A DNA stretch of 37,572 bases from Candidatus Yanofskyibacteriota bacterium (GTDB lineage Bacteria > Patescibacteriota > Minisyncoccia > 2-02-FULL-40-12 > GWA2-44-9). Positions 748-33,673 of the stretch are shown one piece after another. The translations under genes were made by a program, and so were the position numbers. A model generated the notes under the pieces. The model was given only the letters and a program-made list of their open reading frames with translations. It was not told the DNA's origin and did no database searches. The stretch is from NCBI GenBank assembly GCA_016185505.1, contig JACPNL010000027.1, positions 1 through 37,572 of the forward strand, in the 5' to 3' direction. Numbering within the stretch: position 1 is the first letter of the stretch; the number at the start of each line of letters is the position of its first letter.

Positions 748-837
748 CGCAAGTAATAAAGGTATTTATGCTGAACTTGTCTAAGTACTGACTAACCACA
801 CCTTAATTATACGCCTTTTCGGCCAAAAAGTCAACTA

Positions 838-906
838 GGTAGTAGATTTTCCAAATACCCGCCAAAAGGCGGGTAAAAGCCAAAGGTAATTGGAAAATTC
901 ACTACC
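838..906. repeat. Nested palindromic element
   Basis: Outer arms at 838-854 (GGTAGTAGATTTTCCAA) and 890-906 (TTGGAAAATTCACTACC) pair over 17 bases with two mismatches. Inside sits a perfect CCCGCC-AAAA-GGCGGG hairpin (858-873). The inner hairpin resembles palindromes found at 19441-19457 and 29915-29929. The element lies in the 332-base gap between the left-edge gene and the mini-protein gene, in which I see no other gene. Confidence 0.6.
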
Positions 907-918
907 TGGTCAATCCCA

Positions 919-7046: not shown

Positions 7047-7649
7047 ATGATCAAACTTATTATCGGCATCGGCAATCCAGACCTAGAGTATCAAAATACC
7101 CGCCACAACGTCGGATTTATGTTTTTGGATTACCTTGCTAAAAAATTGGAAGCTAATGATTTTGAATTTGATAAAAAATCAAACTCTTTGATAACAAAGG
7201 CAAAATTAGAAACAGCCCCGACGCCAAAGGGTCGGGGCTCCGACCGAAGCGTCGGAGTTATCCTGGCCAAACCTCAAACTTATGTTAATAAATCCGGCGA
7301 AGCCGTGAAAAAATTAGCTAAAACCTACAACCTAAAACCTAATGACCTAATCGTCGTCCACGACGATTTAGATATTCCGTTTGGCAATATCAAACTCTCT
7401 TTTGATAAAAATTCCGGCGGCCACAAGGGCGTAGAATCAATAATGCGAGCATTAAAAACAAAAAAGTTCTACCGCCTCCGCATCGGGCTTGCTAAACCGG
7501 CTCTAGCAAAAGCCCGACAAGGGTCAGAAAAGAAAAGAGACGAATTCGTTGTCAAATTAGTACTTTCAAAGTTTACTCCGGCAGAACAAGAAACTTTGAA
7601 AAAAATCTTTAAGGAAGGTCATGAGAAAATAATGTCGGTAATTAGGTAA
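7047..7649 (+). CDS. pth: Peptidyl-tRNA hydrolase
   Basis: The ATG at 7047 gives MIKLIIGIGNPDLEYQNTRH, the standard start of the family; the upstream extension of the frame has no Met and overlaps the terminator. Catalytic features are visible: Asn in GIGNP (about 10), His in NTRHNVG (about 20) and Asp in VVHDDLD (about 108). The enzyme frees tRNA from peptidyl-tRNA released by stalled ribosomes. A palindromic element (7215-7257) is inserted in frame before VILAKPQTYVN and adds [14 protein letters not shown] to the loop after residue 55, making the protein 200 residues. Confidence 0.95.
   Translation: MIKLIIGIGNPDLEYQNTRHNVGFMFLDYLAKKLEANDFEFDKKSNSLITKAKLETAPTPKGRGSDRSVGVILAKPQTYVNKSGEAVKKLAKTYNLKPNDLIVVHDDLDIPFGNIKLSFDKNSGGHKGVESIMRALKTKKFYRLRIGLAKPALAKARQGSEKKRDEFVVKLVLSKFTPAEQETLKKIFKEGHEKIMSVIR
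7215..7257 (+). repeat. In-frame palindromic element, family A (in pth)
   Basis: Two adjacent hairpins: CCCCGAC...GTCGGGG (7216-7237) and CTCCGAC...GTCGGAG (7238-7257). The sequence matches the copy in the trmH-like gene (33142-33183) at about 40 of 42 positions and is in the same reading frame, encoding [13 protein letters not shown] in both. Confidence 0.85.
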
Positions 7650-7764: not shown

Positions 7765-8553
7765 CTAGTCCTCAATTCTTCGTCGCAACTTCCCGATCAT
7801 CTCATCAGCGTGCTTAACTCCGCCCAGACCAAAGGAAAGACCCAGGGCCAACGCGGCGGCGGCTACGAATCCAACAATCACTATTCTGACAATATCATCC
7901 GCCACTCCCAATTGAGCCAACACTATGAGCAAAGTGAACACGAATACTGACCACTTCGTCAAAGCGCCTAAGAAGTTGGCAGAAACCAATCCCGCCGCTT
8001 TAACCGACGCCCGCACTAATCCCTCTAAGAATTTGGCAACTAAAATACCGATCAACAGAATAACAGCCGCGACAATCACATTCGGAAGGTACAACACAAC
8101 AACTCCCAGAAACTCTGTCACCTGATCAAGGCGAAGAATATTGGCAGCCGCCATCAAAAAGACGATTATGAAGAACCATTTAACCAGCTCATAGAAAAAC
8201 TTCGGCGTATCTAGCCGAAAACCGCCTCTCTCCCATGCGTGCCTGAAACCGACTTTGGTTAAAGCGCTGTCAACGCGAAGCACTCTTACAATGTGCCACG
8301 CAACCTTACCCAAAAGCACGGCTATCAGCCAGCCGACAAGAAAGACGACTATGGCCGCGACAAAACGAGGCACAAACCCCGCCACGCCGGTCCATAGGGT
8401 CAACGCAACCTTACCCAAAAGCACGGCTATCAGCCAGCCGACAAGAAAGACGACTATGGCCGCGACAAAACGAGGCACAAACCCCGCCACGCCGGTCCAT
8501 AGGGTCAACAATGATTCTCGAACTATATCCGATGCTGCTACTACTTGAAACAT
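7765..8553 (-). CDS. Membrane protein with mechanosensitive-channel TM-helix repeats
   Basis: Start taken at ATG 8551-8553, preceded by GGGGGTG, rather than the ATG 24 bases upstream. The product is 262 residues with about six membrane segments. The repeated unit PRFVAAIVVFLVGWLIAVLLGK and later copies (PNVIVAAVILLIGILVAKFLE) match the conserved TM-helix repeat found in small mechanosensitive-channel relatives. The C-terminal ALALGLSFGLGGVKHADEMI resembles the channel pore helix region. No large cytoplasmic beta domain is present. Residues about 16-85 contain an exact 35-residue duplication caused by a 105-bp tandem repeat. Likely in the cytoplasmic membrane; gating role inferred. Confidence 0.82.
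   Translation of the reverse strand: MFQVVAASDIVRESLLTLWTGVAGFVPRFVAAIVVFLVGWLIAVLLGKVALTLWTGVAGFVPRFVAAIVVFLVGWLIAVLLGKVAWHIVRVLRVDSALTKVGFRHAWERGGFRLDTPKFFYELVKWFFIIVFLMAAANILRLDQVTEFLGVVVLYLPNVIVAAVILLIGILVAKFLEGLVRASVKAAGLVSANFLGALTKWSVFVFTLLIVLAQLGVADDIVRIVIVGFVAAAALALGLSFGLGGVKHADEMIGKLRRRIED
8300..8509. repeat. Perfect 105-bp tandem duplication
   Basis: 8300-8404 and 8405-8509 are identical base for base. The unit is a multiple of three, so the channel-like protein gains exactly one extra copy of the 35 residues beginning LTLWTGVAGF. Absence of any divergence means the event is recent or is an assembly artefact. Confidence 0.95.
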
Positions 8554-8579
8554 TAGTATGTATGCACCCCCAATCATAC

Positions 8580-16956: not shown

Positions 16957-17772
16957 CTAAAATAAGTCCCTGTTACTTTTCCACTCGTCCACAATATTCA
17001 CCACCCTCTTATTATCTGACCGTCCCAGTTTTTTGAGATGTTTTTTGTCAGCCACCCACTCACCGCCATTCCAAAATTCAATATTCTCAAACGCGGTTTT
17101 ATACAACGCCTTCTCGCCATATACTGTGCCTACATAAAAATTCTTTTTACCGGCTTTTTGCGCATGCCTCGCGCTATCTAACATCAGCCACATCCCCAGC
17201 GATTGATAAATAAGAGAAATATCGTAAAAGGAATACCAAAAGTGAGTCATATTTTTGTCAGAAACCTCAAAAACATAGGCTACCGGCTTGTCATTCATGC
17301 TATACGAAATAATATCGGTTATAAGGCCATAGTTGAGTATCGTTTTCAAGCGCTCTTCGGGCATCACTAACGGTCCATGCCGTTTTAAAAAATAATCAGA
17401 GCAAAAATCAATGAAACTTTTGTCGCGTATGTCAAAATTCTTAAACGGTATTGATTCACGAACTAATTTATCGCTCGCCCCGTAGTGTGGTTTCGGTTTA
17501 GTTTTGCCAGAGACAGCCGAAATCTCTACTACGGGGTCAAATTTCTTGGCAACGCGGCGGTTCTCGCTTGAAAGAACGAATGAGCTCAACGGAAAACGCG
17601 CGCTTCGAGCCATATAGAAAATATCTTTAACCCCAGGACTACCCGAATATGGCAAATAGCCGGCAGCATAAATATCCGAGATTTTATCCTTTTTCTCTCT
17701 AACACAATAACCCGCGTAACCAAAAGAGTACGCTTTGTAATTGTGGCCGAATTCACTGTGAAACTTACGCAT
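16957..17772 (-). CDS. GNAT-fold transferase, arginyl-tRNA-protein transferase-like
   Basis: Protein of 271 residues. The N-terminal part has GYLPYSGSPG and FYMARSARFPLSSFVLSSENRR, and the C-terminal part has YQSLGMWLMLDSARHAQKAGKKNFYVGTVY, YKTAFENIEFWNGGEW (described by key residues). These resemble the two halves of Ate/Bpt N-end-rule transferases and the related GNAT/FemAB fold. The conserved N-terminal Cys cluster of true Ate1 is not visible, so the substrate is open. Between residues 78 and 98 a palindromic element (17478-17536) inserts DPVVEISAVSGKTKPKPHYG in frame. Likely cytoplasmic. Confidence 0.6.
   Translation of the reverse strand: MRKFHSEFGHNYKAYSFGYAGYCVREKKDKISDIYAAGYLPYSGSPGVKDIFYMARSARFPLSSFVLSSENRRVAKKFDPVVEISAVSGKTKPKPHYGASDKLVRESIPFKNFDIRDKSFIDFCSDYFLKRHGPLVMPEERLKTILNYGLITDIISYSMNDKPVAYVFEVSDKNMTHFWYSFYDISLIYQSLGMWLMLDSARHAQKAGKKNFYVGTVYGEKALYKTAFENIEFWNGGEWVADKKHLKKLGRSDNKRVVNIVDEWKSNRDLF
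17478..17536 (-). repeat. In-frame palindromic element, family B (GNAT/Ate-like gene)
   Basis: CCCCGTAGT (17478-17486) and ACTACGGGG (17528-17536) are exact terminal arms. TTTCGG/CCGAAA form a second stem inside. The coding strand reads DPVVE at one end and HYG at the other, as in the family-B copy in the trmH-like gene (DPVVE...YTTG). Confidence 0.8.
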
Positions 17773-20556: not shown

Positions 20557-20760
20557 GAAATTGGCAAAGAACTAAAAACCTCTTACATAATAACCTTTCT
20601 ACTGCAAATCTCAAATTTTGGCTATAAGATTATTGAAATTTTCTCTGAATAGTGTTCAACTATTCATCAAAAATTTCAATAACTTCTATCTCAAAATTTG
20701 AGATTTTCGCGACGAAAATTATCGTGTAAGAGGTCTTTTCCGGTATTGTGCCAGAACTTC
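20557..20760. repeat. About 200-bp imperfect palindrome
   Basis: The two halves are inverted copies for most of their length. Matching blocks include CCTCTTACA near 20579 with its complement near 20726, ATCTCAAATTTTG (20608 region) with CAAAATTTGAGAT, TTATTGAAATTTT with AAAATTTCAATAA, and a GAATAG...CTATTC tip (20647-20665). No open frame is contained. It could be a MITE-like element or a long hairpin RNA. Left-over gap to the terminator shows nothing else. Confidence 0.8.
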
Positions 20761-20885: not shown

Positions 20886-20910
20886 GTTAGAATGTATAGA
20901 TTTTACCAAA

Positions 20911-21042
20911 CCCCGTATATCAACTTCCGATTGCCTTCTGCTTTTGCTTAATCTTAATATTTTATATCAGTTTATAGTATTTTTCAAGAATTGCTCGCTG
21001 TCTTAAATCGGCTGAAAACCTTTCGGAAGTTGTATTACGGGG
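20911..21042. repeat. Palindromic element ending in CCCCGTA/TACGGGG
   Basis: Left arm CCCCGTATATCAACTTCCGA (20911-20930) pairs with the right arm ending TTACGGGG (21042), with three adjacent mismatches; inner parts are only loosely complementary. The CCCCGTA tips match the family-B elements at 17478, 31463 and 33297. It fills most of the gap between tRNA-Ile and the acyl-CoA dehydrogenase gene. Confidence 0.65.
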
Positions 21043-21051
21043 CAAATTAAA

Positions 21052-27092: not shown

Positions 27093-27242
27093 CTTACCCT
27101 TCCAATTTTCAAAGAAATTAACCTTAACATAGACGTGAATAAACAGGTTGTCAAGTTTCAGTTCGGGTAAGCAAACTCCCGCCAGGAAGTGAATTTTTGA
27201 GCTACGGTCTAACCGCAAAAGCAGAGTTAACTCAAAAATCTC

Positions 27243-31426: not shown

Positions 31427-31462
31427 AAAATCATAATAACAAAAACATTGTAAACAAAAAAG

Positions 31463-31551
31463 CCCCGTAGTAGAGATTTCGGATACCTCCTCGCCTCGCC
31501 AAAGCTTCAGCGAAGCGGGCGGTAAAGATAAACCGAAATCACACTAGGGGG
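31463..31551. repeat. Intergenic palindromic element, family B
   Basis: CCCCGTAGTAGAGATTTCGG (31463-31482) pairs with CCGAAATC...ACTAGGGGG (to 31551). The interior GCCTCGCCAAAGCTTCAGCG-AAGCGGGC looks like a second palindrome nested inside. The rest of the 31427-31638 gap shows no gene. Confidence 0.7.
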
Positions 31552-31638: not shown

Positions 31639-32127
31639 TTATCGTCCATTTTGTCTAGTTATCCTGATGTTGTGAATGCCAACCCAAGTTTGAGCCGACA
31701 CCACTCCAACCGGAAGCACCCACCACCATTTTGTTTGCTTTTTAAGCTCATAAGTAGCCAGTGACATGACGCTTACCGCGGCAGCGCTAATCAAATAAGT
31801 TGCATGACGACCGTTGTTTATAAACGGCCTCATCAGCGGATTTGCTTCTACTATTGCGCCATTACCTATGTTGTAAAAAGTGGATTCTATATCAAATACT
31901 TTAGACGCGCCCATAAACGTAACGGCTGTCCAAAAAGCGCCGTCGGCAATTCTTTTGTCAGAAACCTTTGATACCGCTGTCTGGCTTTTGCTTTCAGAGC
32001 TAGTTGTCTGCACGTCAACAAATGACAATTTTATAGCGTCGTCAACAAACGATTGGGAGTATGTGAAAGACGGAAAAAACAGTACAACCGCCGCTAACAA
32101 CGCAAAAATCCTTGTCACTGTCCTCAT
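31639..32127 (-). CDS. Exported or membrane protein, DUF5658-like pattern
   Basis: Protein of 162 residues. A signal peptide is clear (about residues 1-24: basic start, LLAAVVLFF core, SFTYSQS end). A Ser/Thr-rich stretch follows, then FDIESTFYNIGNGAIVEANPLMRP, the D-x-x-S/T...G...E-x-N-P-x-M pattern of DUF5658-type membrane proteins. Two further membrane segments (about 112-126 and 134-150) follow. GGAGAA lies upstream of the ATG. Function unknown. Confidence 0.65.
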   Translation of the reverse strand: MRTVTRIFALLAAVVLFFPSFTYSQSFVDDAIKLSFVDVQTTSSESKSQTAVSKVSDKRIADGAFWTAVTFMGASKVFDIESTFYNIGNGAIVEANPLMRPFINNGRHATYLISAAAVSVMSLATYELKKQTKWWWVLPVGVVSAQTWVGIHNIRITRQNGR

Positions 32128-32834: not shown

Positions 32835-32895
32835 TTCAAAAATTTTTTATTTTTAATCTGTGTTTTTGATATTTAATTTTTAATTTTTAATATCA
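32835..32895. repeat. AT-rich low-complexity repeat, AAATATCAAAAATTAAAAAT theme
   Basis: AATTCAAAAATTTTTTATTT and GATATTTAATTTTTAATTTT units fill the gap between rnhB and the trmH-like gene and run into that gene's 3' end. Confidence 0.4.
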
Positions 32896-33673
32896 TGGCA
32901 TATAGCACCACTCCCGCCGCCACCGATACATTCAACGATTCTTTTTTGCCATACATAGGAATATACACAACCTCGTCACAGTATTTTAAAATTTTCGGAC
33001 TTAGTCCTCTGACCTCGTTGCCCAGAACCAGGGCAATTTTTTTATTCTTTGACACTTTATATTTGAAAATGTTTTTCTGCTGAATTTTTAGTTTGCTTGC
33101 AGTGAGCTTGTCGAACCGCTCCAGTCCTACAATTTTGACTTCTCCGACGCTTCGGTCGGAGCCCCGACCTTTCGGCGTCGGGGTTGAACTTTGATTTTTG
33201 ATTTTGAGTAAACATCTCCATGTTTGCGACTGGTATTCCCAAGGCACATAATTTTCAGCACCTAGCGCTGTTTTTGATATTTTATCACTTCCCTGCCCCG
33301 TAGTGTAAATCAAGTTTTCTTTCAGCGAAGCTGCTTGATTTTCTACTACGGGGTCCGCTCCCAACGCCGTCTTGCTTATCTTATCATCAAAATTATCTAC
33401 GCCAGATATCGTATTTATAATACGATCGTGGTATAAATCAGATCCTATTTTTTGATTAATATTCTCCCGACGGCAAAGCCGTCGAGGATCCTCGACAGAG
33501 TCGGGACGTACTCCATATTTCATGATTTTTGGTGTCGGCGTTATCCCGCATAAATATATCTTGGAAACTCCCGCCGCGTCCGCGGTTCTAAATATTGAAC
33601 CTACATTTTCTTTACTCCTAATATTGTCCAATATTAATACCGGGCACACATTTCTCTTGACCATGTTTATCAT
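32873..33673 (-). CDS. TrmH/SpoU-family RNA methyltransferase swollen by insertions
   Basis: The SPOUT core is intact: [36 protein letters not shown] (motif 1 key N-x-R-S-x-x-N-V-G), [28 protein letters not shown] (motif 2), and [18 protein letters not shown] (motif 3, knot). It transfers methyl from SAM to a ribose 2'-OH, probably in tRNA or rRNA. Minimal members have about 150-180 residues; this one has 266. The excess maps to at least four palindromic elements (33098-33116, 33142-33183, 33297-33353, 33465-33506) and a doubled [10 protein letters not shown] segment. All insertions keep the frame. Start at 33673 or the second ATG at 33664. Confidence 0.88.
33098..33116. repeat. Degenerate family-C element in trmH-like gene
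   Basis: CAGTGAGCTTGTCGAACCG keeps the TGAGCTTGTCGAA core but the terminal arms no longer pair fully. It encodes RFDKLTA, a different frame from the other two family-C copies. Confidence 0.5.
33142..33183 (-). repeat. In-frame palindromic element, family A (in trmH-like gene)
   Basis: CTCCGAC/GTCGGAG and CCCCGAC/GTCGGGG hairpins side by side. The coding strand differs from the pth copy at about 2 of 42 positions and encodes the identical [13 protein letters not shown]. Confidence 0.88.
33297..33353 (-). repeat. In-frame palindromic element, family B (in trmH-like gene)
   Basis: CCCCGTAGT (33297-33305) and ACTACGGGG (33345-33353) arms with inner AAATCAAG/CTTGATTT. It encodes DPVVENQ...LIYTTG and is flanked by the two copies of [10 protein letters not shown]. 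Confidence 0.82.
33465..33506 (-). repeat. In-frame nested palindrome (in trmH-like gene)
   Basis: TCCCGAC/GTCGGGA outer arms enclose GACGGC-AAA-GCCGTC and GTCGAGGATCCTCGAC. It encodes [14 protein letters not shown], which interrupts the region after the conserved GITPTP. Confidence 0.72.

Follow-up and report, generated by a model that had tools for sequence, protein, structure and literature searches.

Palindromic insertions in genes and promoters of Patescibacteriota and a small GIY-YIG nuclease element as their probable source

Encoded on the minus strand of contig JACPNL010000027.1 of a Candidatus Yanofskyibacteriota bacterium, at positions 16957-17772, is a 271-aa GNAT acetyltransferase-like protein (PF13480, from Pfam), and within its gene, in frame, lies a palindromic element of 59 nt (17478-17536, minus strand) with exact CCCCGTAGT...ACTACGGGG arms and with DPVVEISAVSGKTKPKPHYGA as its encoded peptide (E=4.1e-7 with the covariance model R2 described below). 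The stretch analysed, here termed the window, comprises 37,572 nucleotides of that contig, and the genome to which it belongs is of 681 kb in 32 contigs and is 95% complete. A second exact pair, 58 nt in length (33296-33353, minus strand; E=3.5e-8), is in frame within an ORF for a 266-aa SpoU/TrmH rRNA methylase-like protein (32873-33673, minus strand; Pfam SpoU_methylase 1.2e-30), where it specifies 21 residues. That the two pairs both read DPVVE was pointed out in an earlier, sequence-only reading of the window and holds, though the second starts at 33296 and not at 33297. There are two such exact pairs in the window as against none in 100 shuffles, and they are present in 8 of 58 genomes, a reversed-pattern control giving none in the same 58, which excludes a frequency no higher than that of shuffled sequence. 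The SpoU gene has at least three insertions in the one gene. Its element is between two copies of one 10-residue peptide (33260-33420), the DNA of which has many synonymous differences (AGC/TCA for serine), and a further insertion, of residues about 50-96 of the protein, is one that most relatives lack. It also carries one of two 93% complementary copies of another palindrome family, CCCCGACGCC..GGTCGGGGCTCCGACCGAAGCGTCGGAG (7213-7257 and 33142-33186), which are within the peptidyl-tRNA hydrolase and SpoU ORFs and absent from the other loci examined. A search of genome contigs with the SpoU protein gave a single, distant contig, from a Brocadiia MAG.

The window has, besides the four copies noted in the earlier reading, one further intact copy and one that is decayed. 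The intact one is intergenic and of 75 nt (CTAGGTAGTAGATTTTCC..GGAAAATTCACTACCTGG, 835-909, plus strand; E=2.7e-6), is flanked by the 4-bp target site duplication (TSD) TCAA at 831-834 and 910-913, and directly adjoins a promoter-like sequence of the minus strand at its -35 box (TTGACT-17-TATAAT, 834-806, scoring 11/12 in a promoter scan). The decayed one (CCAGGAAGTGAATTTTTGAG..CTCAAAAATCT, 27182-27241, minus strand; E=0.0067) has lost one outer arm. An 89-nt intergenic copy (31463-31551, plus strand; model E=4.2e-4, and folding) was present as previously described, with one base of its right arm changed (CTAGGGGG). Read on the minus strand it is a hairpin followed by CTTTTTTG (31456-31463), downstream of the minus-strand ORF 31639-32127, for which it has possibly been reused as an intrinsic terminator, to judge from its layout; a terminator scan of the window gave no entry for it. 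The fourth copy, earlier considered a looser one, is intergenic as stated. It adjoins a tRNA gene, is of 132 nt (20911-21042, minus strand; arms CCCCGTAATACAACTTCCG..CGGAAGTTGATATACGGGG, like those flanking the GIY-YIG genes at loci L288 and L291) and is bounded by the TSD CAAA at 20907-20910 and 21043-21046. However, its arms are of a sister type, GTAATACAACTTCC / GGAAGTTGATATAC, to which we return. Folding z-scores of the elements in the window range from -3.7 to -7.3. Near the same tRNA gene and the 132-nt element is a long imperfect inverted repeat with 47-nt arms that are 77% alike (20574-20738), which is perhaps another element type, and elsewhere there is an exact tandem duplication of 105 bp (8298-8507) within the minus-strand ORF 7765-8577.

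A covariance model (R2) built from ten copies was used to search for the family, called Family B, more widely. For the window's own genome it gave 12 matches at E<=1e-3, and within the class there were matches in 91 of 383 genomes, spread over 77 of 294 genera; in a phylum-wide set 17 of 379 genomes matched at E<=1e-5, of which 13 belong to other classes. The short copies are geneless, dispersed and of 58-89 bp, with about a dozen in the window's genome, and they have terminal inverted repeats, as do miniature inverted-repeat transposable elements (MITEs). No Rfam family matched the element, and pattern scans of viral contigs for the arms gave no match.

By arms alone, 144 distinct insertions were gathered. 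When folded, the element has nine pairs, then A.C and G.T mismatches, then nine further pairs, with pairing ending at position 20 and a variable loop beyond; its two ends are slightly unlike, one being NNNNGTAGTAGA and the other NNNNGTAGTGAA. The main class is represented by 118 copies, all of which have A.C at position 10 and G.T at position 11, and in which pairs 1-9 and 12-20 are 78-100% Watson-Crick despite varying columns, the most variable positions being 78-98% Watson-Crick as against 37-59% in shuffled arms. The outer four bases (CCCC, CCAG, CCCG, CCGG, TCCC and others) and positions 13-20 covary with their partners, and even a rare change of the core, GTAGA/TCTAC, is compensated. To judge from these alignments, it is structure and not sequence that is kept in the stem, except for GTAG and the mismatch pair, the sequence of which is itself conserved. 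Arm-by-arm correction in replication could be an alternative cause of the likeness of the arms, though it would be expected to erase the mismatches unless these are selected. The earlier suggestion that the ends are the recognised part is borne out family-wide in that GTAG(T/A) cores and paired arms are kept, and the interior varies in both length and sequence.

The earlier reading had also proposed a search for target-site duplications, and perfect 4-bp TSDs flank 99 of the 144 insertions, as against a mean of 11.4 and a maximum of 22 with re-paired flanks; TSDs of other lengths are at chance in the same set. Their consensus is YNNR, with C or T first in 98 of the 99 and A or G last in 95, and the commonest tetramers are TATG/CATA and TTGA/TCAA. 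Copies may be nested, as with a whole composite in genome G107 that itself has the TSD CATA. At five loci there are nested elements whose outer pair in several cases has its own TSD, and some nested composites recur at several contig ends. What are the sites into which the elements go? For copies of TATG type, the downstream ATG coincides exactly with the start codon of an ORF of 60 codons or more in 31 of 37, compared with 439 of 1796 in the control (p=1e-13); the genes include ones that we take, by eye from their N-termini, to be for alanyl- and lysyl-tRNA synthetase-like proteins, S12, S20, L27, L34, NDK and GatB. A -10-like box is 4-12 nt before the ATG, as in leaderless genes, in 17 of 32 TATG copies (control 183 of 2042), and a -10-like box is 16-18 nt on from 21 of 23 TTGA copies, compared with 82 of 408 other TTGA sites outside ORFs (p=3e-12). 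Insertion thus favours the -35 boxes of promoters and the starts of genes, and since 4 bp of TATG or TTGA are duplicated, the start codon or -35 motif stays whole in both copies. The excess over intergenic TTGA sites argues for what would be targeting, rather than survival alone.

Copies within long ORFs number 17, and 13 of these are in recognisable proteins. In addition to the GNAT and SpoU proteins of the window, the hosts are Met-tRNA formyltransferase, endonuclease IV, YchF, a PMM-like hydrolase, Dus, an NDH-2-like oxidoreductase, a MiaA-like IPP transferase, two proteins named by eye (one of them TPR-like), and class II fructose-bisphosphate aldolase, where the element is at the same site in two genera. 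For three of them, the formyltransferase, the aldolase and endonuclease IV, the element is where the alignment with solved homologues is interrupted. Element length plus four is divisible by three in 11 of the 13 recognisable genes, as against 45 of 127 copies elsewhere (p=8e-4), and in 11 of the 17 when all spanning ORFs are counted, the 58-nt SpoU copy being an exception. In-gene copies read as peptides of the type DPVVE...HYG, and the constraint on frame implies translation straight through the RNA of the element, so that peptides such as that of the GNAT copy would be inserted in the proteins. No clear 4-bp TSD is visible at the two in-gene copies of the window; in its genus, in-gene copies of 58/59 nt have instead common flanks, GA[element]CAGG, and these are not explained by the GIY-YIG element model developed next.

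In G107 one lone pair of arms was 295 bp apart, between the TSDs TATG and TATG, and the single ORF internal to it was that of a GIY-YIG nuclease. When the GIY-YIG genes of 20 genomes were searched, more arm-flanked cases were found, and from five such proteins a subfamily model was made. At a threshold of at least 141 bits it gave 23 matches in 22 of 383 genomes, followed by a gap in the scores. With one locus examined per genome, Family B arms directly bracket the nuclease gene in 20 of the 22, two being armless, and background inverted repeats mostly had arm scores of 6-9, with a maximum of 12, out of 60. The nuclease-bearing element is two ~20-nt palindromic arms around one gene for a GIY-YIG nuclease of ~85 aa, in all 295-351 bp; that gene is the only ORF between the arms, and no other gene was found between Family B arms in the loci examined. 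Perfect TSDs, mostly TATG on the gene strand, flank 14 of the 20, and the genes that are often opened by the downstream TATG are, by eye, presumably for DnaE-like, GroES-like and LexA-like proteins. The conserved orientation of TATG suggests that the nuclease gene may be transcribed from the promoter of the gene at the landing site. Polarity of the arms relative to the nuclease gene is mixed (8 versus 12).

The nuclease matches PF01541 with E=5.8e-16, its Y6, Y17, G19 and E51 are invariant and R27 is nearly so, and it is under purifying selection (median pN 0.25 and pS 0.81; ratio 0.16 for the closest pair). Among solved proteins it is closest to UPF0213 and to SLX1, of which SLX1 is a structure-specific nuclease. 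In the nuclease tree Family B arms are confined to one side of a branch, and in two sister clades the arms are different, GTAATACAACTTCC/GGAAGTTGATATAC in one and GTAGGACAAATTCG/CGAATTTGTACTAAC in the other, with each arm type being on one branch side. The first of these sister elements has a 70-nt core in genome G047, and since its arms are shared by the 132-nt copy of the window (20911-21042), that copy belongs to it. At five further loci, where the GIY-YIG genes belong to other clades, the flanking palindromes are of quite another kind, e.g., TACCCCCACACTCACAAGGTTT, which suggests that there may be a larger set of palindrome-flanked GIY-YIG elements.

Several observations link the short copies with the nuclease-bearing form, the two having arms and 4-bp TSDs in common. 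Arms of short copies agree with those of the nuclease element in their own genome at 40 of 40 positions in G107, 40 of 40 in G229 and 39 of 40 in G245, and in the last the short copies share with the nuclease element the rare GTAGA core. Over twelve genomes 131 of 5000 permutations gave a within-genome fit of the arms as good, and in several of the twelve the match is weak. Short copies were detected in 16 of 22 genomes with the nuclease subfamily as against 75 of 361 others (p=7e-7), and, when the five seed genomes are left out, in 11 of 17 (p=1.8e-4). The 75 have no subfamily match in the assemblies examined. The window's own genome, 95% complete as noted, yielded no partner gene and a sole GIY-YIG match, one of UvrC length.

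How, then, do these elements move? The reading that we consider probable is that Family B elements are non-autonomous, MITE-like derivatives of the nuclease-bearing transposon, and are moved as follows. The nuclease, in cis or in trans, would recognise the folded hairpin (9 bp, A.C and G.T, 9 bp, with the GTAG core), the fixed mismatches making its two ends and two strands distinguishable, and would cut a YNNR target with a 4-nt stagger; the element would be joined at the cut and the gaps filled to give the 4-bp TSD, and copies in genes would survive when the combined length of element and TSD is divisible by three and the reading frame stays open. The compensatory changes and the fixed mismatches together suggest that it is the hairpin that is recognised, and we infer that the nuclease drives movement with the folded hairpin as its substrate. 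We know of no GIY-YIG enzyme that joins DNA ends or transfers strands, and in the open-access papers searched none is reported to join DNA ends, so the joining step would need either host factors or repair, or new chemistry. The earlier reading of the copies as elements recognised by their ends was largely right, and what it missed were the nuclease partner, the fixed mismatches, the promoter and start-codon targets and the sister family.

Could the nuclease do no more than break the target, with the hairpin being copied or captured by host double-strand-break repair and no true transposase step? This would leave the elements the same and is a tentative possibility, in keeping with GIY-YIG enzymes being textbook homing, repair and restriction nucleases and with the kinship to UPF0213 and SLX1. 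However, a homologous, occupied allele is needed for homing, and the targets here agree in only 4 bp, and TSDs of one fixed length would not be expected so regularly. Homing by an endonuclease or intron as such was rejected, there being many unrelated targets with 4 bp in common and no Rfam intron match in the window. That the MITEs are moved in trans by an unrelated transposase, e.g., of DDE type, the GIY-YIG gene being a captured passenger, seems to us unlikely. Fixed-length TSDs are, in textbook terms, the usual mark of DDE transposases, and both the lack of known strand transfer by GIY-YIG enzymes and the existence of some high-copy genomes with no GIY-YIG partner detected favour it; but the nuclease gene is the only one between the arms, is under purifying selection and is bracketed in 20 of 22 loci in many families, and the arm types split with the nuclease clade, as they would not with a passenger.

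The GTAG invariant in the stem brings to mind REP/REPIN elements, which are GTAG-tagged palindromes moved by the RAYT (Y1, PF01797) transposase, and RAYT-type Y1 genes are present in 31 of 58 relatives with no Family B arms nearby. As the partner here RAYT was rejected and the reading is very improbable, since the surroundings of 20 Y1 loci, out to about 1 kb, are free of the arms, three high-copy genomes of one genus (G012, G021 and G027 of g11) have no Y1 match, and GTAG is paired here and accompanied by 4-bp TSDs, as opposed to the unpaired GTAG tag of REP (PMC3733652). Scarcely credible is that the copies are not mobile DNA at all but RNA structures, such as terminators or regulatory hairpins, that selection has conserved. 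The strong pairing, the compensatory change and the terminator-like look of the window copy at 31463-31551 would fit it, but not the dispersed copies with TSDs at unrelated sites, the nesting, the insertions in genes and the absence of an Rfam match.

Returning to nuclease-driven movement of hairpins, on balance we incline to the view that it represents a DNA transposon of a new class, and perhaps one of the smallest yet known, in which a ~85-aa GIY-YIG nuclease moves folded hairpins into promoters and start codons with 4-bp duplications, and whose clades each have their own palindrome. If so, GIY-YIG joins the few enzyme folds that drive transposition, and does so in a ~300 bp element with one protein. 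It would also offer a reason why a genome has several small GIY-YIG genes and why in-frame palindromes abound in these reduced genomes. In-frame palindromes in conserved genes, known from Rickettsia, are then also a feature of streamlined bacteria elsewhere, and with a visible source. The preference for -35 boxes and start codons makes promoter-directed insertion testable. Searches of the open-access literature gave no description of GIY-YIG transposons, MITEs or palindromes in Patescibacteria, and earlier reports may exist.

Of known systems, REP/REPIN elements with their RAYT (TnpA_REP, a Y1 HUH enzyme) are alike in being short GTAG-core palindromes with many non-autonomous copies, some of them inside genes, and a small single-gene partner acting in trans; RAYT genes are flanked by REPs, in which GTAG is an unpaired tag (PMC3733652). 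Unlike them, the partner here is GIY-YIG, the arms are halves of one hairpin with fixed mismatches, and there are 4-bp TSDs. The palindromic elements of Rickettsia, as summarised elsewhere (PMC10969869), are likewise in frame inside unrelated conserved genes. However, they are of ~150 bp rather than 58-89 bp and from another bacterial group, and the family here has TSDs, a preferred target and a partner with a nuclease gene. MITEs of DDE insertion sequences share with Family B the terminal inverted repeats, fixed-length TSD, lack of genes and a longer gene-bearing relative, but the gene-bearing element here has a GIY-YIG nuclease and no DDE transposase, and compensatory change maintains its 20-nt pairing. 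Reported from the rRNA genes of CPR bacteria are GIY-YIG insertions that match neither intron group and, in the relevant passages of that report (PMC11270868), are judged to be outside spread by homing; elements such as ours would explain these non-intron insertions, though in those passages their ends are not described as palindromes with TSDs. A precedent is given by casposons, where a nuclease family outside the classical transposases serves as transposon integrase, yet those are large and Cas1-based (PMC4046053), in contrast to the ~300 bp and GIY-YIG nuclease of the element here.
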